DNA of 64,000 nt from Dermatophagoides farinae. Taxonomy: Eukaryota; Arthropoda; Arachnida; Sarcoptiformes; Pyroglyphidae. The notes below the pieces were generated by a model. That model ran no database searches. It saw nothing but the letters and a program-made list of their open reading frames with translations, and had not been told where the DNA came from. Position 1 is the first letter of the stretch. Every line of letters starts with the position of its first letter. The DNA is taken from the NCBI RefSeq assembly GCF_024713945.1, contig NC_134677.1, positions 7,524,001 to 7,588,000 of the forward strand, given 5' to 3'. The translations under genes and the position numbers were made by a program. Shown here in pieces: positions 17,082-30,118 of the stretch.

Positions 17082-20000
17082 TCATTCGTTTGTACGATGA
17101 GATGAAGCTATCGATTGATTATGATGATGATAATAAACACTACTGTAAAATTCTACTAATCGATCATCTTTATTCTGACAGAATCCACGAAAATCTTGCA
17201 TAATTTTACGCATTGAATTCTCATCACCAGTTACATTTGTTTTCCAACGTTTCGTTATTAGATAATTCCAACACCAAAGAAATCCAATCTATTTTGTAAA
17301 AATTTCAAATTAATTGAATGGCAAGATGTTTTTTCCGATGACTTACTTTTGCATCAATATGAGCATCCTGACCTTTTAATTGCATTCCACTAAAATGTCT
17401 AGTAATATATTCTTCATGTCCCATTTCTTGTCTATCGATACTCTGTGATACGAATTCAATATAAAATAGGAAATTATTCAATTAATCATCATTCTGAAAT
17501 TGATCCAAAAAATACAAACCTGTAAAAATTTGCCACGTTTATTCAGATGTTTCTGTGCCGATGTAGTATTCTTTCTTGGTATCATAACAAATATACTACC
17601 GGATACATGGACAAATTGTCGTTGATTTTCGGTGGTCGGATCATGAAATGGTATGAAACCGAATTTGACTAAAATTTTCTCTTGAAAATTAAACAATCGT
17701 TCACCTTCCAATATTTTGAAACAAAGAAGACAATCAATATTCAATGATATATAGACTGGACCACGAAGTGGATCTGAACGATTCGAAAATGGTAATGCAA
17801 ACGGATCCCATGGTATCGGAACAATATGTAGATTAGTTCCTTTCGTACGACTCCATGTTGAAACTTTTTCCGGTATAGCATTGCCGGTTGCAACCATCCA
17901 TTCCATGATCATTTCAAATGCTTGTTCTGGATCATAAAGACTATGATATTTAACATTAACCCATTCTACTCGATCAGTTTTGCTATCCAATTCTACTTGA
18001 AAATTTTTGAATGTAAATTCTAAACAAATTTATTAGTAAAAAAATTAACAATTCGAAAATTTCATCCACAAACCTGGAGCTTGATTCGAGATAAGTTCAT
18101 CTTCATATGCCGTTACCGTAGCAGTATTTTCCAATTCTTTTGGATTATGTTGTTGTACGATACCAACTTCCATCCAGGCACGTTCAAAATATATCCTTTC
18201 AATTTCATTTTTAGCAAAAAATTGTCGATTCTGATCAGTCATCAGGCAATAAAGATGGAATCCACGTTTAAAATTTACTGACATATCACCAGATGCATGT
18301 CTAATAAGATCTTTATTTCGAAAATTCTGAAACATTCGTTCAGCTACAGTTTCATTCGGTATATTTTCCACATGTTTAACAGCCCATTCGATCGCTTCCA
18401 AACTGATGAACGTATATTCAGGTAGATTACGAAATTTAATCGTAAACAAATTACTTGATTGTTGCATAAAGTTGATGATTTCATTCGGTAATGATTCGAT
18501 GGTGATTTTATCAGAAATTTGTTCCGGAATAGAATCACATGTATCATGGCTACCACTATCAGCGGATGATCGATTTAATGTGGATGTTAATTTTTCATGT
18601 TTTATTGTACGATTTGATGATGATTCATTGATCGATGTAAGCGATATAGGATCATTCGAAGAACGAAAATGAGTGTCAAAATTATCGCCAATAGAATTGG
18701 CACTATTAGGTGTTTGAATCGATGTTGAACTATTTCGACGAATCAATGATGATGATGATGACGATGATGATGTTGAACAATTTTTACATTCAATAGATTT
18801 ATTCGTATTTATCAATTTAACACCATTGATTACTTTCAATAGTTTGATGAAGCCTTTTTGTAATTGAATTTTTTCTTCGAATGAAAATACATCATAAAGA
18901 TCACAATTAAATTCATTATCACCAGACATATAACGATCGATAATTTTTTTCGTTTTCGAATGTTGTGTAGGCAAAACAAGTAAACGAAATCGCCAATATT
19001 TAAGGCTTTCAATCAATGGATATTCAGTGTAATCACCACGTAGACAGATATAATTGTCTAGATAATTCCATTTATATGTTTCTAATTTTTCACTTGTAAA
19101 TGTTACCCAACTAACACCATATGTTTCATTATCCGGTGTACGAATTCGATAACAATAACATATATTATTTGCTTTATATGGATGTCTTGGATGATAATTT
19201 ATAATCGATATACGATTCTCTTTATGTGCTAATTCATGATAAATTCTTCCAATACTCAATATGAACGTATGTTTATTACCGGTACGATCACTGAATGTAT
19301 AACATATTTTATTTTTTGGCAATAAAATTATCTGAAATCCTTGTTGCAAACGTTGATTGATCAATTCATTATAGAATTGATCAATGGTTAACATGTTCAT
19401 TTTTTTATGATTATTACCACCACCATCTTCATTCGATTTCATATATCGTTGTTGATATAATTCATTTGCTTGTTCTTCAGGTAATAGATCATAAATATGT
19501 GTTACATAATCTTGTTCTAATGTACGTTTATCCGGAAGAAAATCGGTGGTTATCGGTAAACAAGCGGGCATCACTAATGATTTCCAATCAACACCGGTTG
19601 TTATGGCTGGTGTCCATTCTTGTTCACCTGTTGCACCCCATGCCCACAAAAGACTATTATCAGTAAGTAATAAACTACGTTGTTTCAGATGAATATCCGA
19701 TTCATTCATTACATTTTTCTTTTCCAATTCAATCAAGGCATTCGATCGAGATTTTGTGAGATTTTTCTTTAAATCTTTATCCACATTTTTCATAAAGCCA
19801 TCAATTTGATCAAACGATGTACGTTTAAAATTTTTATCTTTCGATAACACTTCTGTAGAATCATAGATGATATTAAAATCATCTGAATTTATTCGATTCT
19901 GTGGTATAGCTTGATAATGATGTTGTTGCATAAAAATTCCAGTTGGTCCAAGCGGAAATACATGTGTCCATCGACGACGATTTGAATTCAATTTAATCGT

Positions 20001-22276
20001 TACATGTGATGGATCAAATGGATTGATCAATGCTTTTGTACGATGTAATTGATCTTTGAATTTATGAACAATAATATCATCTTTTGATTTGATCTTAAAA
20101 TGTCCTTCATTATTCACTTTATTCTCGACGGATGTTGAAAGATTGTGTGAAAATGAATTATTTTTTGGCCGCTGTAAAACATTTATACTACCACCACCAC
20201 CACCATCGACTATATCATTATTCTTTGGTGATTGTGATAAAGATAATTTTGAGTATGCTGAACGTGATGGAACCACTACCGATTGACGACGTTTTGGCCG
20301 TTGTTCATCTAATACCATTAAATTATTTCCATCATCTAAATTTCGATTGTAAGACATCATCATTCTTTGTGAATGTGTAGGCTGATGAAGATGATGATGA
20401 AAAGAACCATGTTGATTAATCAAAAATATTGATGATGGTTTATTCGATGCGGATGTACGAAATATTTGATTATCATATTCATCATAATCAATGAATGGTA
20501 TATTTTGACATGATGTTAAATCGATGCCATTTGAACCGGATTCATTGTTTTGGTTACCTTTTGAATTTGAATTATGGCTAATGAATGGTGGTAGATTGAG
20601 ATTGGCGGATTTTTTGACAGGACTTTGTCCCTGTTCTGGTGGTGAAATGTTTGGCATTTTAATTCGTGGTATAAAATTAGACGAAGGAAATCGTTGTTTA
20701 GATGAGTAAAAACTAAGATTAATCCAATGAGGCATATTGTATTCATCGTTTGACATGTTTGCACGTCTTGAATTGAACTATAATCATCAAAAAAAAATTA
20801 GATTAGACATTTTGTATATTTGTATTACTGAAAACGCCTAAATTTATTCATTCAATTTATTACCTTAAATAATGGCACAGCATGAAGAGGTTGTTCGCCC
20901 AAACAAACCAGATCGCTACCAATACCTGCATGCACACAATGGATAATCATTTATTAGAATTTTTAGAAGACAGCTCAATCTCATTATATATACCATTATC
21001 AATGATTCGTTGTTTTGTTATGTTGGTCAAATCTAAATCCACTTCATATACACCAACACCGGGTGATATTACAACGGAAAGTTGACCGGTCCGATCAAAA
21101 CTACGATCCAGATTATGTCGTTCAAAAACTGTTACAAAATCAAACAAAATCAGACGATAAATTGTCATTATTATTGAACTTACCATTAAGAGACATGTTT
21201 AAAACTTCGAGAAAATTTCCTTGTGATGCTGTCGAATTATATGCTTTAACACCTTTCAGACCTCTTTTCTCATGATAATGAATCACTTCTTCTTCATAAA
21301 GATTGAATAATTCTCGTAAATATATCAATGTCGATGACCAATCATCGAATCGTTCATTTTGAACAGCAACACGATAATAATCTTCATAGAATCGTTTCTG
21401 ATAATCTTGTTGTAAACATTCCTGCATAGATTCAGGAAATTCATTGATATCACTAGCTAGATAGAAGGTTCGTGAAAACATAACAATGGTTACATCATGA
21501 CTACAGTTGAATGTCTGTATCAAAAAAAAAATGTAAATAAATTCATAATAGATAGAATTTTATATTCACCTTCCATTTATTGAAAAGATCGGATAGAAAA
21601 CCTTTGACAGCTTTCTCAAAATATAGATCACCATTAATATCATAATCCCACATTTCTGAACTCATCTGTAAGAATAGATAAACCATACTGGATGCAGATC
21701 TAAAAACTACTTTTGTTTCTTCATTGATATAACCACTGGCCATACGGACACCATGATGCCACATTTCAAATACCTGACATCGGATATTACTAAATTCAAT
21801 CTTTTTATTCAGATAAACACAAGTGTTGGTTATATGTTTTTTTAATCGCCACATGTCACTACGTGCAAGATATTGATCTTTGAAGAATAATTCTACAGAA
21901 TCTAATGCAACAATATCTTCATCCACAACGTTCATGACAACATCGCTAAAATTTCTTAGCTGAAATGTCATTGCAATCGAATGTTCGATTGTTATGGTTG
22001 GACAATTGGCTTTCGGTTTATCAACATTGGTTATTTGTAATACCAAACGACTAAAAAAAAGTTAAAGCAAAAAAAAAAATAAAACGATTGTTTTGTGAAA
22101 TTGTTTTCAATTGTTATTTTTTAAAATTAAAATTCAAAATCAAACCTAAAGTTCTCTTCACTGGAATAAATTTCAACAATATCACCAATTTTAATATCGG
22201 AATAATCATTTTGACAGATGACAATATCATCATGATAATGAGTACGTTGATGTGTATTCAATTTAACGGTGGGCAT
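17082..22276 (-). CDS. DEPDC5: DEPDC5/Iml1, GATOR1 complex subunit
   Basis: Nine minus-strand exons, 22276-22146, 22050-21570, 21514-21184, 21128-20994, 20925-20864, 20777-18074, 18019-17520, 17442-17347 and 17288-17082, give about 1548 residues (human 1603). Key stretches are [20 protein letters not shown], the [18 protein letters not shown] block, [20 protein letters not shown], the LDGxLPxx-like [17 protein letters not shown] region and a DEP domain around residues 1165-1245 ([20 protein letters not shown]). The C-terminal region ends with the conserved [14 protein letters not shown] and a [12 protein letters not shown] motif. With NPRL2 and NPRL3 this protein forms GATOR1, the GTPase-activating complex for RagA/B that switches off mTORC1 at the lysosome when amino acids are scarce. 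One 2.7 kb exon carries a Ser/Asn-rich insertion and most of the middle of the protein. The start has the expected short lead before the conserved beta-rich domain. Confidence 0.93.
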
Positions 22277-22544
22277 TGTTTTATTTTCTATTATATTCTG
22301 TCTGAAATTCTTTAAAAATTTTTAAAAAATTCTTTAAAATCATTTCACTAAAATGTACGCATAAAATGCATGAGTGTTATGACAAAATTGTCTACAATGC
22401 CATCTATAATCATTTTATCGCAAGACTTGAAAAAGAATTTTTCAAATGGAAAAATTATGCAAAAAAATTATATTAATTTTTTTTTATTTTTTATGAAAAA
22501 AATCGAACATAATTTTGTTGAATGAATTTTTAAAAAGAACAATC
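22277..22544. promoter_or_regulatory. 5' flank of DEPDC5, 3' flank of RPS19
   Basis: 268 bases between the DEPDC5 start and the RPS19 stop. GCCATCTAT (reverse of ATAGATGGC) lies at 22399-22407, about 125 bases upstream of the DEPDC5 start codon. No gene seen. Confidence 0.4.
22399..22407. promoter_or_regulatory. GCCATCTAT motif (reverse of ATAGATGGC)
   Basis: Copy of the recurring CTCF/YY1-like word, in the short DEPDC5 upstream region. Confidence 0.35.
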
Positions 22545-23266
22545 TTATGCCGTGGTTGCCATAGCAGCATTTTCTTCCAGAATCTTTTTCCGAGATGCTT
22601 CTTTCAATTGAGCAGCAATACGATTCATATCTTTGCAACCTTGACTTGTCAAACGACGACCACCGCTGTTGGCATCCTTTTCCACCCAGTTGACGGCTAA
22701 ATTGAAATTAAAATTAACAAATTACGAGAAAAATCAATTTTTTTATTGGGGGAGGGCTGGAAATGATACAAACCTTCCAATGCTTGCAGGGATTTACGAG
22801 CAATATTCGAACCACCACGGCAAAAATGCGATGGACGTACACCACGACGATTTCTACCACCATAGATTTTGGTAATGGCACCAACACCTGAAATTTACAA
22901 AAAAAAAATCAAAACAAATCAATTTTGAAAACGAAATAATTCAACTGACCAACTGGGGATCGATGATACAAATGACGGGCAACCGAAGCACAACGTGTGT
23001 AGAACCAATCATCATCATATGGAGCCAATTCTTTATACACAGCAGTTTTGACCAAATCACTCCAATCCGGCACTTTTAATTTACCCGATCTATTATCAAA
23101 TAATAACAAAAAAACGAAAATCAATAAGTTGCTTTCGTGATGACATGTGGGCTAAAAAAACATTAAATTTTCAAAAAATTTACTTTTTAAGAAAAGCGGC
23201 CAATGCAACAACAAATTCACTTTGATCAACATCTTTAACACTGACCGATTTTACATTCAAATTCAT
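22545..23266 (-). CDS. RPS19: 40S ribosomal protein S19 (eS19)
   Basis: Four minus-strand exons, 23266-23184, 23089-22950, 22887-22774 and 22696-22545, give 162 residues. The family signature is unmistakable: [54 protein letters not shown] and the [18 protein letters not shown] loop, then SLQALE and the [16 protein letters not shown] tail. The protein is needed for 18S rRNA 3' maturation and 40S assembly. It is about 17 residues longer than human RPS19 because of an alanine/glutamate-rich C-terminal tail. It begins the minus-strand run RPS19-EIF2B5-DNAJC3-ALG9. Its coding sequence is a little richer in GC than its neighbours, as often seen for highly expressed genes. Confidence 0.96.
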
Positions 23267-23501
23267 TTTTTCTGAATGATAATTACTGGAGAAAAACGTC
23301 GAAAAAACCAAAATGAAAACACGAGGCAAGCACAACAGTGAGCGAAAGGAAGAGAGGAAATACAGTGTACGTACACGCGTGATTCACGGAAAGTTTCTTG
23401 TTGTTGAAAAAATTTACGGGAAAATTTTGAAAAATTTTTATTGAAAAAAAATTTATATTTAAAAAAATCAATTTAATCAAAAAAAGAAATTAATTAATCA
23501 A

Positions 23502-25399
23502 TTAATCATCCTGATCATCCGTGGATTCTTCTTCAGCTTCCTCAAGCCATTTAATGAAAAGGCCCACTTCTTTTGATTTTCGTAATGTTTCCTGTTCACT
23601 GGTGACATGATCCGAAAGACTCTTTGGCTTATAAAACCATTTTAAAATCAAATCTTCTTCAAGTACATTTTCTTCATATAAAAATTTAATTATTTTGATC
23701 AAATGTAAGCTGGTAACCAGTTCCTTGTTTTGTAGTTGAAATTCTTCAATAGAATAGATACAATCATTTTGTGATGAAATACTTTTGATATAATTTTGAA
23801 TTATAGGTAGACCATATTTTAGATTTGATTTAACAGTGGATGAAAAATTTCCATCACTATTCAGTGCTAAATTTAGAACGGCTTTGATTACCAATGAATT
23901 CACCTCGTTCACCGGAACATTATATGCATGTTTTGATGAATTGATCTCCAATATAATATTCTCTGCGATGGAATGTTCTTCAATTCCTCGTGAAACACTA
24001 TCATATACTTCATTGTAGAATGCTGCGATAATGATAAATAACATTAATAATGAAATTAAAATAGCAACAAAAAAAAATACCAGAAAGAATCTAACCTGAA
24101 TACTCATCACCTAAACTATCATAACTATCGTCGGAAGCATCGGAAAATTTTGTACTATCTGAATCACATTCATCATCATGATTTTCGTTCATTTCTTCAT
24201 TATGGCCAGAATCAGAATCCAATTGTAAACACTCAATATTTTCATCATCAATATTAATATCACTAACACGACCATTCGGAACAATTGGATAAACGAACCG
24301 TTGCAATAGGTCACGACTTATATTACGATAAGCTAGAATACTATCGACACGAGCAGCATAACCTTCTTCAAGAATTTCCACATGAATATGATGACAAAGC
24401 AGCTGGTAAAAAATAAATTAAAATATAAATTATGAAATTCAGTGCATAGTTTACCACTCACTTCAATATCAGCCAAAAGACCATGAATAAAATTTTCACG
24501 GGTTTCAAAATCAAAATTGTCCGAAAAATCAGGTGGAACTTTTTCCGAACAGATAGCAATTTGAGTATCAAGTAGATCATAATGAATCGAAATACAAGAG
24601 TTTCTTTCAAATAAATCCTAAAAAAATTGTATGAGAAAAACAATTTGAAAATTTTTGTAGAAAAAAAAACAAACCGTTGGTATTTCGGCGCGTTTCTTCA
24701 TGGATTTTTCAAACAAAACTATTTTCTGTTGAGAATCCAAAGCTATCATTGTCTTTTGATTTGGCGATGATCTAGAACGATGATTTGGCCACACTTTACG
24801 AAAAATACAAGTCATTACACAGCCAGGATCTTTTTTTATATTTTCCCTGTATGTATAAGATAGAAAGCCAAAAAATAATTAGACCAACACAACCAATTGT
24901 TGATTCATCCAGTTTTGATTACTTGTGTTTTTCAATCATTTTGTCCAGTCTAAGATTTCCTACACAATCACCATGTATTAGGATAAAATTTGATTTTATT
25001 ATTCCACGAGAATACAGATCTCTCATCACCGGTCCAAGGCTTGTGTAATCTTCAGAGAAAAATATTTGAATATTCAATTTGACATACACTTTACGTTTAT
25101 AGTCGCTATAAAAAGTGATAAAATAAAATTAACTAGTTTTTCAATTCTATTAAAATAATAATTAATAATTGAACTTACTCGATGAATTTTTTAATTTCTT
25201 CAAAAAATTTACCACAGAATAGAAAAATTTCATCAATATTTGATAATGTCAACATATCGATTGTGTATTGCAACATTGGACGATCGACTAAATTCATCAG
25301 AACTTTTGGCTTGGATAGCTCAATAGGAGCAAAATGTTCATCATTATCGATCAATACGACCGCTTGATGAATTTCTTTTTCCATTTTCTTTATATTCAT
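23502..25399 (-). CDS. EIF2B5: eIF2B epsilon subunit lacking the beta-helix domain
   Basis: Six minus-strand exons, 25399-25179, 25105-24923, 24846-24675, 24617-24462, 24402-24096 and 24022-23502, give about 519 residues; human eIF2B-epsilon has 721. The nucleotidyltransferase-like half is present (PIELSKPKVLMNLVDRPMLQ; RDLYSRGIIKSNFILIHGD; IHYDLLDTQIAICSEKV; NFDFETRENFIHGLL), followed by ILAYRNISRDLLQRFVYPI. In known family members a ~120-residue left-handed beta-helix of hexapeptide repeats comes next. Here exon 5 runs straight on into an Asp/Ser-rich linker without any intron. The C-terminal W2/HEAT domain, which holds the catalytic GEF activity on eIF2, is complete (residues ~346-519, ending FIKWLEEAEEES). 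Two starts are possible, M1 or M6; the first is given. Identity is firm; the domain loss is read directly from sequence and could still reflect a paralogue. Confidence 0.9.
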
Positions 25400-25710
25400 C
25401 GTTAATTGATTAAATGATTTTTAGCAGCAAAAACAATTCCAAAAACATTAAATGAAGAGAAAAATAATAAAAAAATTTATAAATATAAATTCCACACACA
25501 CACACACAAACAAACACACATTGTCAGTGGCTTTTCACATAGTACATATACAGAAACAACAATTTCAAGTTTTTTATTAAGAAAATTAAAAAAATTTCAA
25601 AGAAAACAGATGACAAAAATGATATTTACACATATATAAATATTGTTTGATACGTGTTATTATATTACAAATTTTTTTTTTGAGAGAAAAATTGGTAAAA
25701 ATATTAATGT
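25400..25710. promoter_or_regulatory. Spacer between EIF2B5 and DNAJC3
   Basis: About 310 bases holding the EIF2B5 upstream region and the DNAJC3 3' end. It has a CA run at 25493-25520 and T-rich tracts. No gene or clear regulatory motif seen. Confidence 0.4.
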
Positions 25711-27498
25711 TTAAAATGTAAATTTAAACGTATATCGACCACCGAATGGATCGAATCCTTGTGTAAATGGATGGAATGCATTACCATTCTGTTGTTCAGG
25801 ATCTAATGGATCTTCTCCATTATCAAATTTTTGTCGTTTTTCTGGATCGGTTAACACTTCTTTGGCTGCAGCAATATCAATAAATTTATCCTCTGCCTTT
25901 TTTTTCTCATCACCTTGATATTGATCGGGATGCCATTTACTGGCTGCTTTACGATATGCTTTCATTATATCTTTTTTCGTTGCATGACGTGGAACGCCAA
26001 GAATTTTGTAATAATCACGTTTTTTCGATTGTTTTTTCAATCTTTCGGCTTTATTATAGCCATCTTTGGCACGGGTCATGTTTTCGTCGATTTGTAACAC
26101 TTTTTTATAATCACTTGATGCTATGTTTGTTGTAAGGATGAAAAAAGGATGAAATTTTAATTTAAATTTATTATTTGCTTACCATCATCGTAATTTTCAA
26201 GATTAATATATGAATCAGCTCTATCACATAATGCATGGATATCGTTTGGATGTAATTCTAATACTTCTGTGCAAACTTTGATTGCTTGCTGGGCATCTCC
26301 TTTCTAAACAACAACAACAACATATATCGGATACAGAGAAAAAATAGAATTTCATTTGAATTTCATTCAAAATCCTAAATTGTAATTTACATACCAGATT
26401 TAAACAATGGCATAATTTTGATTTGAAAAGATGAACCAAATTCGGCATCTGATTTTCCAATTCTAAAGCTGCTTGTAATTTATCAATACAACCTTGATGA
26501 TCATGTTTTGAAGCAAATTCTGTCCCACTTTTATAAAGATTGGCCAATTTTTTCACTTTTTTATAATGTTGATGACATTGCTTATGATCGGGATCCAATT
26601 TCAAACATTCACGTATTGCATTCAACGATTCTTCTGGTTCACCAATCTGATAATGAAGTTTACTTAGCTTTAGGAATCCATCGGTGTTATCGGATTTCAT
26701 TTTTGTTAATGCACGTAAATCGTTTATTGCATTGATTATATCGCCAATATTTTCAAAACAATGTGCTCTCATTTCACGTAGTTCGTAGCTCCAATACAAT
26801 TCTTGGCTAAGTTTATTCAACAACGGTATTGCTTCAGAACATTTACCGATTTCCACCAAATGTTCGGCAAGATATTTATCACTTTTTAAATGTTCAATCT
26901 GCTCATAATAATGATGTGCATCTGGATGATGTGGATCAACATGTATGATATATTCAAATTCTTGTTGTGCTTGATCAAGATTTCCTTGTCTATAAAGAAC
27001 GACAGCTTTTTGTAATCGTGCCGGAACAAAATCTGGATTCAATTTCAAACATTCATTCAGATCATCCAATGCTGATCGATAACGACCCATTGCTTGATAA
27101 ACGGTTGAACGTTTGAAATAAGTTAGATAATTATCTGGATCATTTTCTATGCATAAAAATTTGTTTTTGTTGAACAAATAAAAAAACGATTAAATTAATT
27201 AACAATTCAAGTATTAGTTTCTATATTTATTATCATACCAACAGCAAGATGATAATGAGATAAAGCATCATTTAGTTGTCCTTTCATTAATAGCTCCATT
27301 CCAAGTTCTAGATGCGTATCGACATCCGAACCATAAACACAGTATACTGTATAAAATTGAATAAAAATGTTAAATTTCAATTTGAAAGAAAAATTTTTCC
27401 AAAAATCACTTACAAAGATTAAAAACAATATCGAATAATAATGGAAAATAGATTTTAGCCATTGGTGGCATCTTGATTACCATAGATGCTTGTACCAT
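25711..27498 (-). CDS. DNAJC3: DNAJC3/P58IPK, ER co-chaperone with TPR repeats and J domain
   Basis: Five minus-strand exons, 27498-27414, 27346-27239, 27146-26395, 26303-26183 and 26120-25711, give 491 residues (human 504). A hydrophobic N-terminus (KIYFPLLFDIVFNLLYCV) fits an ER signal peptide. About nine TPR repeats follow (for example YFKRSTVYQAMGRYRSALDD, LRALTKMKSDNTDGFLKLSK). A J domain occupies residues ~390-460 with the HPD triad near 419-421 (ASKWHPDQYQ). The C-terminus ends in the characteristic QGFDPFGGRYTFKFTF. P58IPK is known to deliver misfolded lumenal clients to BiP and was first described as an inhibitor of eIF2alpha kinases. It lies directly upstream of EIF2B5 on the same strand. 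I chose the ATG at 27498 because it gives a normal signal peptide; an in-frame ATG further upstream adds an unlikely leader. Confidence 0.95.
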
Positions 27499-27971
27499 TT
27501 TTATTTTGGACTTTGTTTCAGATTGCCACTCGAATGTAAACAAAACAAAACAAAAAATTTTGATCCAAAATCCAAAATATGGTGATGACGTATGCCAATC
27601 AATCAATAAATTACTGGCTGGTCAAACGATGCAATTTTATTAATTTAATTATTAATTAAATTAGATTCAATTTAATCAATGACCATATGAATGATGCAAA
27701 TAGTAATTTTCATTGAAAATGAATGAATGTTTCTATGTTTGGCTTTATGTGTGTGTTGTAATAATCAGAACTTGCATGCAAATAACAACGAAAAAAATGC
27801 CATGTATCGTGTTAACATGTGATTGGCTAAACCAAAAAGGGGAGGATAAAAACATTCGGATTACGCATGCGCATTATCAAATTTATAAAAAAAATTTTAA
27901 TTATTAATCATTTTTTTTGCTGATTAAATTCAATTAATTAATAATGATGATTGTGGATTGTGGATATCAAA
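27499..27971. promoter_or_regulatory. 5' flank of DNAJC3 and 3' flank of ALG9
   Basis: About 470 bases with no supported gene. About 90 bases upstream of the DNAJC3 start is TGACGTATG directly followed by CCAAT (27586-27599), a pairing of an ATF/CREB-like half site with an NF-Y-type box of the sort found in ER-stress promoters. This is suggestive only; the exact UPRE (TGACGTGG) and ERSE spacings are not met. Confidence 0.35.
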
Positions 27972-29918
27972 TTAATGGTACTTATTATAATATCTGATAT
28001 TGGCCAATAGATTATAATCGATAAATTGACATTTACTTTCAAAAATGAATGGTATGCTAAATGTACGTAATATATTTGGTGATCGTTTTTGATCAAGAAA
28101 TGGTAATGATTTAATTATTATCCATGATTCTGGATGTTTAGAATATGGATAATCACGGCCATAATAATCTGGATAATCTGAATCAATAATATAATGACAA
28201 TCCTTTTGAACATTTTTGATGTAGCGTTCGGTTTCTTCTTGATTCATATCATTCATATGATCAGGTATCGTACGAGTTGGATATGTGACATTTGTATCAA
28301 AATGTTTAGGTAATTGTCCACGAAATTCCGATGCAATAAATTCAATTCGAAATTTAGATGGAATGAAAAAATTACTTGGAAATCGATGCCATTCTTTGCC
28401 TAGGCAAATAATTCTTGTTGTTGTTGTTGTTGTATTATGTAAAGTCGAATCGATAATCATGTTTGGTTCCCAGAATTTATGATAGATATTCATTGATGAA
28501 TAATATCCTTCGTATAGTGCAGATATTCTAGCAGTGCTGAGAATGAAAAATATTGAAAATGATAAACCAATCAATTTTCGCATAAATGACTGTAAACGGT
28601 GGGAAAAACAGGCGACAATCAATGTCAAATTGTTGAATGTCAGAGATGTTGTCAAACACAATAAAGGATAGATTGGATACATAAAACGTTCTTCTTTATG
28701 AGCTTGATAAAAGAATATCATATACCAGAGATGTAATGAACAATTTAACAAAAATTGCTTAATCCAATTCTGGTTTTTGATTGGAAATTTTATACTCATA
28801 AACCATGTGATCATCTATGGATGTGTAATTATTTTGAAATTATTTTAACGATTGAAAAAGAAATCTACTCACCAAAATCGGAAAAGATGTTAAAGAAATG
28901 AAAAAGAAAATGTTGAAATTAAGGAATAAATTTCTTATGTAGTATGAAAATGGTTCAGTTCCATAAATATTTGGACCATGTTCACTGAACACATTGTAAA
29001 GGATAATGTTCAAACTGGCAAATACAAATTTACCATAATAATATGAATCGATCGCAATAGTTGGTATTAATATTATCAAAGCCGAAATGCAAGACGCTTT
29101 AATGAATTGTTTCGGATTTGACAGAAGAATAAGTAATGCCATAGGGATTCTAATTGGTTATGAATTTCAATTGAAATTTATTAATAAATTTGATTGGAAA
29201 AAAATTCTTTGAAAATCATACCCAATTACCGAAATGAATGGCCAACCAAGAATCGACCCAAAAGCAAAGAAAAAGATAAAAAGCTGATCATTGTCACGAA
29301 GCCAAAAAGCCAATGATAAACAAACAATGTAGATGGCAAATGAACTTGGAAGAAATGTTGTCATCGAATTGAACATACCGGCAGCCAAACAGGAAGTAGC
29401 ACAATAATAGACTGCAGTTTGATTACCAAAATATTTTCGAATTGATCTAAATCAAAAAAAAGAAATTAAATTTTTTTCAATACAATCATTACTAACATGA
29501 ATAAAAAAGTTTCGATAGAAGCCGAAATCATCACCATATAAAAACGGGTAATGTAGAAGATCACAATTTTACTAAAAAAAAATTTCAACAATTTAGCAGG
29601 TAGCATATAAAGCCATAGATATGCATATGATCGGATAGCGTATTTGGGTGAATATTCCCATGTTTGAAATCCATTACCATAGATTAGAAAATGTGATGGT
29701 TCCCAATAGTTAAATGTTTCATCACAATCATTAATGTTATTCCATAAAGCTGAACAAAGACGTGCAAATAGAAACCAAACGAATATCCATTTAGTTGATA
29801 TGTAGGAATGAGTGTTTGTTTCCGATTGCTTCGTACAATCTTGATCTTGTTGTTCATTTTTTACCCGCGGCGGTAATGATGGTTTCCGCTGTTTGCCTAA
29901 TCGACGTTTGGTCGGCAT
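27972..29918 (-). CDS. ALG9: ALG9 alpha-1,2-mannosyltransferase
   Basis: Four minus-strand exons, 29918-29497, 29446-29222, 29149-28873 and 28814-27972, give 588 residues. The protein has a basic cytosolic start, then the GT22-family first loop DCDETFNYWEPSHFLIYG (residues ~64-81) with its acidic catalytic residues, FQTWEYSPKYAIRSYAYL, many transmembrane helices and the family HKEERFMYPIYPLL motif. The late lumenal segment GKEWHRFPSNFFIPSKFR and EFRGQLPKHF is typical of ALG9 rather than PIGB, PIGZ or ALG12. ALG9 adds two alpha-1,2 mannoses from dolichyl-phosphate-mannose to the lipid-linked oligosaccharide in the ER lumen. DOLK, in the same window, makes the dolichyl phosphate this pathway depends on. 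Divergent from SPRYD7 with only about 200 bases between start codons. Confidence 0.95.
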
Positions 29919-30118
29919 TTTGGTTGATTGTTAAAAAAAAAAAAATATTTTCCACAACCAAACATCTGTTGCCAAATTCAATATTACAATAGATAATGAC
30001 AATAACAGATGGCGTAACATTTGCATTAATTGTTGACAGATTTGTTTGATTCTGTTAAAAAAAAAGAATCGGGTGTTGTCAAATAAATGTGATTCTTATT
30101 CAATTCAATACGATGATA
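29919..30118. promoter_or_regulatory. Divergent promoter region between ALG9 and SPRYD7
   Basis: Two start codons face away across 200 bases. ACAGATGGCGTAAC lies in the middle (AGATGGCG at 30007-30014), another copy of the recurring word. Probably a shared bidirectional promoter. Confidence 0.5.

Follow-up and report, generated by a model that had tools for sequence, protein, structure and literature searches.

Within the window (the whole stretch of 64,000 nucleotides analysed, C1:7524001-7588000 of a 62.4 Mb, 22-contig mite assembly), a splice model of the reverse strand joins six exons between 25399 and 23502 into a gene for a 519-residue eIF2B-epsilon (Table 1). Its five introns measure 73, 76, 57, 59 and 73 bases in order and all have GT-AG boundaries, the reading frame is intact, and positions 23000-26000 contain no N's. 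The model reproduces the coordinates, including those of exon 5, and the protein length that had been given in a preliminary description of this DNA. The upstream neighbour on the same strand (25711-27499) encodes TPR repeats and a DnaJ domain and ends about 310 bases before the epsilon start; we take it to be similar to DNAJC3/p58IPK, a regulator in the same stress pathway as eIF2B. Downstream, a further reverse-strand gene (~23265-22500), presumably similar to ribosomal protein S19, starts about 240 bases past the epsilon stop codon. Rfam gave no matches in positions 20000-30000.

Table 1. Features of the epsilon gene (positions in the window) and the other places in the assembly matched below cut-off by the LbH_EIF2B profile.
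Feature	Position	Strand	Remarks
Exon 1	25179..25399	-	Start codon at 25399; PL domain; splice model and human epsilon match
Exon 2	24923..25105	-	PL domain; splice model and human epsilon match
Exon 3	24675..24846	-	PL domain; splice model and human epsilon match
Exon 4	24462..24617	-	PL domain including NF pair N226-F227; splice model and alignment
Exon 5	24096..24402	-	End of PL (RFVYPIVP), then directly the acidic linker, at the expected beta-helix position
Intron 5	24023..24095	-	73 bases; sole non-coding stretch separating the end of PL from HEAT
Exon 6	23502..24022	-	Catalytic HEAT/W2 domain and stop codon; W2 58.1 bits; matches human 520-720 together with the end of exon 5
AATAAA, possible poly(A) signal	23437..23442	-	3' of the stop codon; spotted by eye
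LbH_EIF2B rows	C3 and C2:5015889		Adjoin NTP_transferase matches; presumably GMPP-like
LbH_EIF2B row	C2:5562518		DCTN5
LbH_EIF2B row	C1:5684610		Low-complexity Met/His/Ala region with internal stop
LbH_EIF2B row	C11		Gene L033:182-2113

Domain composition of the mite epsilon

In a phmmer search of solved structures, the mite protein matched human epsilon (E 3.4e-79) in two stretches, mite 12-293 to human 44-330 (the PL stretch, 182.7 bits) and mite 318-516 to human 520-720, and it also matched the epsilon subunits of S. pombe (E 2.4e-60) and S. cerevisiae (E 8.6e-42), two species that we assigned to the structures from their entry codes. Together with the W2 match, this confirms the original identification of the gene as an eIF2B-epsilon that keeps both its PL and its W2/HEAT ends. 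Identity to human epsilon is 96/282 in PL and 58/164 in HEAT, or 34% across the aligned parts. Four residues (N226, F227, E372 and W505) are invariant in the mite/human/S. pombe alignment: the NF pair is kept (mite N226-F227, human N263-F264), as is the LEIN glutamate (mite E372, human E577), and the C-terminal WL..AE motif is present. Work in yeast points to a role of the NF pair, the catalytic glutamate and the tryptophan in exchange.

What separates the two matched stretches is 24 residues in the mite (294-317) as against 189 in human epsilon (331-519). Residues 342-466 of the human protein are described in PMC10972756 as a beta-solenoid, which lies inside this human-only gap and thus has no counterpart in the mite. 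Pfam profiles support the same picture. At E<=1 only three families matched the mite protein (W2 at 58.1 bits, above its cut-off, and NTP_transferase and NTP_transf_3, both below theirs), and at that threshold neither LbH_EIF2B (PF25084) nor Hexapep was among them; as controls, the beta-helix of human epsilon (a query sequence entered by hand) and mite gamma scored 123.3 and 71.4 bits, respectively, against the LbH_EIF2B profile. NCBIfam returned sugar nucleotidyltransferases only, all below their cut-offs. Nor could the domain hide in the gene structure, since the 73 bases of intron 5 leave no room for a beta-helix exon of ~375 bases. The loss of the beta-helix proposed in the preliminary description is borne out by the two-stretch human match, the profile negative with its positive controls and the short intron, and we regard it as well supported that the domain has been lost from what appears to be the only, and an apparently intact, epsilon of this mite.

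In place of the beta-helix, the mite protein carries an acidic linker (V285-A347, 63 residues) with 14 Asp, 7 Glu and 10 Ser as against 1 Lys and 1 Arg, which probably serves as a flexible acidic tether. The linker portion of exon 5 is open for ~53 codons, for which the chance in a random frame is ~1% by a rough estimate at the window G+C of 0.298. Relative to eIF2B-epsilon as otherwise known (EIF2B5, yeast GCD6), the mite protein thus shares PL with its NF pair, an acidic linker and the C-terminal HEAT/W2 domain, but lacks the beta-helix, with HEAT tethered straight to PL, and its 519 residues compare with 678-742 in the six solved epsilon sequences that are full-length, leaving out fragments 461, 189 and 182 residues long. 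The paralogue of the epsilon core, eIF2B-gamma (EIF2B3), consists of PL and beta-helix; in contrast to the mite epsilon it has no HEAT domain and retains the beta-helix that epsilon lost. Conversely, eIF5 and 5MP/BZW have the C-terminal W2 domain in common with the mite epsilon but no PL, with eIF5 carrying PF01873 instead (as in the copy on contig C21).

Assembly-wide search for another epsilon

The preliminary description allowed that the window gene might be a specialised paralogue. When the assembly was searched with the profiles W2, NTP_transferase, Hexapep and LbH_EIF2B, and also with the mite epsilon protein, no second epsilon came to light on contigs C1-C10, leaving the paralogue idea unsupported, though because these searches score best candidates only, exon by exon, a very divergent copy could escape them. 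W2 occurs in five places: the window, C4:5983106 (which we take to be 5MP/BZW-like), C2:3241080 (presumably eIF5-like), C2:6110047 (presumed eIF4G) and C21:64445 (eIF5, with PF01873 and W2). Of the nine rows returned with the epsilon protein as query, six are the exons of the gene itself; the other three, on C2, C4 and C3, are weak and overlap NTP_transferase and W2 genes. Among the six LbH_EIF2B rows, gamma (C8) alone scores above the cut-off. Relocation of the beta-helix to another gene was considered and rejected, as these six places correspond to gamma, two presumably GMPP-like genes, DCTN5, a low-complexity region and a gene on C11 (Table 1). No relatives were found in prokaryote genomes or viral contigs, as expected of an animal gene.

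The C11 gene is a 643-residue intronless open reading frame in which LbH_EIF2B matches below cut-off (E 0.0017 across 45 residues); by eye, it also shows a linker rich in acidic residues and a C-terminus of helical character. Its protein had no PDB matches at E<=1, aligned to epsilon in hhalign with a probability of 0.6% over a short misplaced stretch, and gave a single-sequence fold too poor to be informative (mean pLDDT of 35.4). As a candidate for the mite epsilon it was rejected on account of its contig, which in all likelihood derives from another organism; in that organism the gene might encode an eIF2B-epsilon that has diverged strongly.

The contigs above C10 probably represent a second, compact eukaryote within the assembly, a reading that rests on a second chaperonin set, a second eIF5 (C21), a second eIF2alpha (C14), a glycogen debranching enzyme gene and dense open reading frames. 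Specifically, nine of 26 chaperonin rows fall on these contigs, apparently representing eight genes (seven single-frame, the one on C20 in two), and long ORFs cover 0.81 of one 9 kb stretch of C11, as against 0.0-0.37 of seven window stretches of that length. Intron absence alone cannot separate the two gene sets, as several mite genes likewise lie in one open frame. No IF-2B genes were found on the contigs above C10, which argues against the second genome being complete.

Other observations concern allergen-related and protease genes. A protein encoded on C1 matches Der p 2/Der f 2 (best E 1.6e-30) much more closely than it does NPC2 of mammals (best 6.9e-9), in support of an astigmatid-type mite. 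One group 1-like cysteine protease lies no nearer to Der f 1 than to enzymes of plants. Matches to the papain family, whose usual active-site motif is CGSCWAFS, occur at 38 places in the assembly, and tandem members at C6:4883500-4886050 (L045 and L046) read CGSCAVFS at the active site, with the cysteine kept.

The remaining subunits and a working model of the complex

Gene models for gamma, beta, alpha and delta, spliced by hand at GT-AG sites, all sit on contigs C2-C10. Gamma (447 aa; human gamma E 4.1e-57) retains its own beta-helix, a point on which the preliminary description had sought an answer, as judged both from LbH_EIF2B (71.4 bits) and from the alignment of residues 343-440 to human 347-444 (31/98 identical). 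Beta (348 aa), alpha (302 aa) and delta (499 aa, or 520 with the last short intron left unspliced) match their human counterparts at E 1.6e-90, 6.1e-77 and 1.7e-72 (for the 499 form), respectively, and a fourth IF-2B gene, at C2:8274074, is presumably methylthioribose-1-phosphate isomerase. The genome thus encodes all five eIF2B subunits. The mite eIF2alpha (C2:5878737) reads LLSELSRRRIRSI, in which Ser51, by the numbering that we assume, is kept.

We favor, with a probability of roughly 0.65, a sole mite epsilon that works without a beta-helix and is paired to gamma by PL-PL contact. In yeast, PL and beta-helix are described as contributing independently to gamma-epsilon pairing (PMC4046112), and it is from this independent action of PL that we infer that epsilon-gamma pairing would be maintained through PL-PL contact. 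The link to beta and delta (i.e., the regulatory core) would then be carried by the gamma beta-helix and the epsilon PL. HEAT, instead of hanging off the end of the beta-helix, would sit on a ~60-residue acidic tether from PL and clamp eIF2gamma against the epsilon core, leading to GDP release. For comparison, the yeast HEAT is reported to be attached through a ~90-residue flexible linker (PMC6513899), eIF2gamma to be sandwiched by the epsilon catalytic domain and the core (PMC7990499), and epsilon-cat to be dispensable for binding other subunits (PMC4046112). Against this reading, mutagenesis cited in PMC4046112 credits both beta-helices, epsilon's included, with attaching the catalytic subcomplex to the regulatory one, in yeast as well as in human, such that the loss should come at a cost to assembly. 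We would expect a reshaped eIF2B, a decamer whose epsilon flanks are smaller and whose catalytic-regulatory joint is weaker, and the cost would lie in that joint and in an altered active-to-inhibited movement. In human eIF2B this movement has been measured by the swing of the epsilon beta-helix domain, and the inter-half hinge at epsilon H352 and P439 (as described in PMC10972756 and PMC7990499), both of which lie within the domain lost in the mite. Descriptions of the core itself differ, from a gamma2-epsilon2 core model (PMC4046112) to the alpha-beta-delta hexameric core of later structures (PMC6572841).

The same binding role of the epsilon beta-helix (PMC4046112) lends itself to the main competing reading, in which an epsilon without the domain would sit loosely on the alpha-beta-delta core, the free gamma-epsilon pair would do most of the exchange, and the stress response would be partly uncoupled. 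The purified yeast gamma-epsilon subcomplex is reported to exchange GDP with kinetics like those of the full complex (PMC3877758), consistent with such a free pair. However, the genome retains alpha, beta and delta, all three with good alignments to their human counterparts, and eIF2alpha keeps Ser51, which together speak for a working, regulated complex, and we consider a largely free pair unlikely.

Two further readings would place the beta-helix out of sight instead of out of the protein. As our evidence comes from one assembly, the gap might stem from misassembly, or from a deletion allele carried by a single animal or strain, in a species whose epsilon normally has the domain; yet the junction is in frame with a gradual passage from PL into the acidic linker (63 residues with a single Lys and a single Arg), canonical splice sites flank it on both sides and the surrounding sequence is free of N's, making this quite improbable. 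Less probable still is that the window copy represents a paralogue, either specialised or in decay, and that the full-length epsilon is absent from the assembly, which may be incomplete. The short beta-helix match on C11, possibly within a very divergent epsilon, would accord with such a missing gene, but C11 most likely comes from another organism (given the gene density of one 9 kb stretch of it and the duplicate chaperonin, eIF5 and eIF2alpha genes on contigs above C10), its protein has neither a PDB match nor a meaningful profile alignment to epsilon, and the mite's four other subunits were recovered from the C2-C10 contigs.

Implications for eIF2B

Among the matches listed in the open-licence literature, there was no report of an epsilon without a beta-helix. 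Both the integrated stress response and vanishing white matter disease target eIF2B, and a natural epsilon of this kind would represent a minimal version with which to test what the domain does. The working of a sole epsilon without the beta-helix, as we read it from gene content and alignments, suggests that the domain is dispensable. It is possible, though we hold this tentatively and at somewhat less than even odds, that the whole astigmatid lineage runs regulated translation with a beta-helix-less epsilon, in which case neither exchange nor stress control would require the domain.
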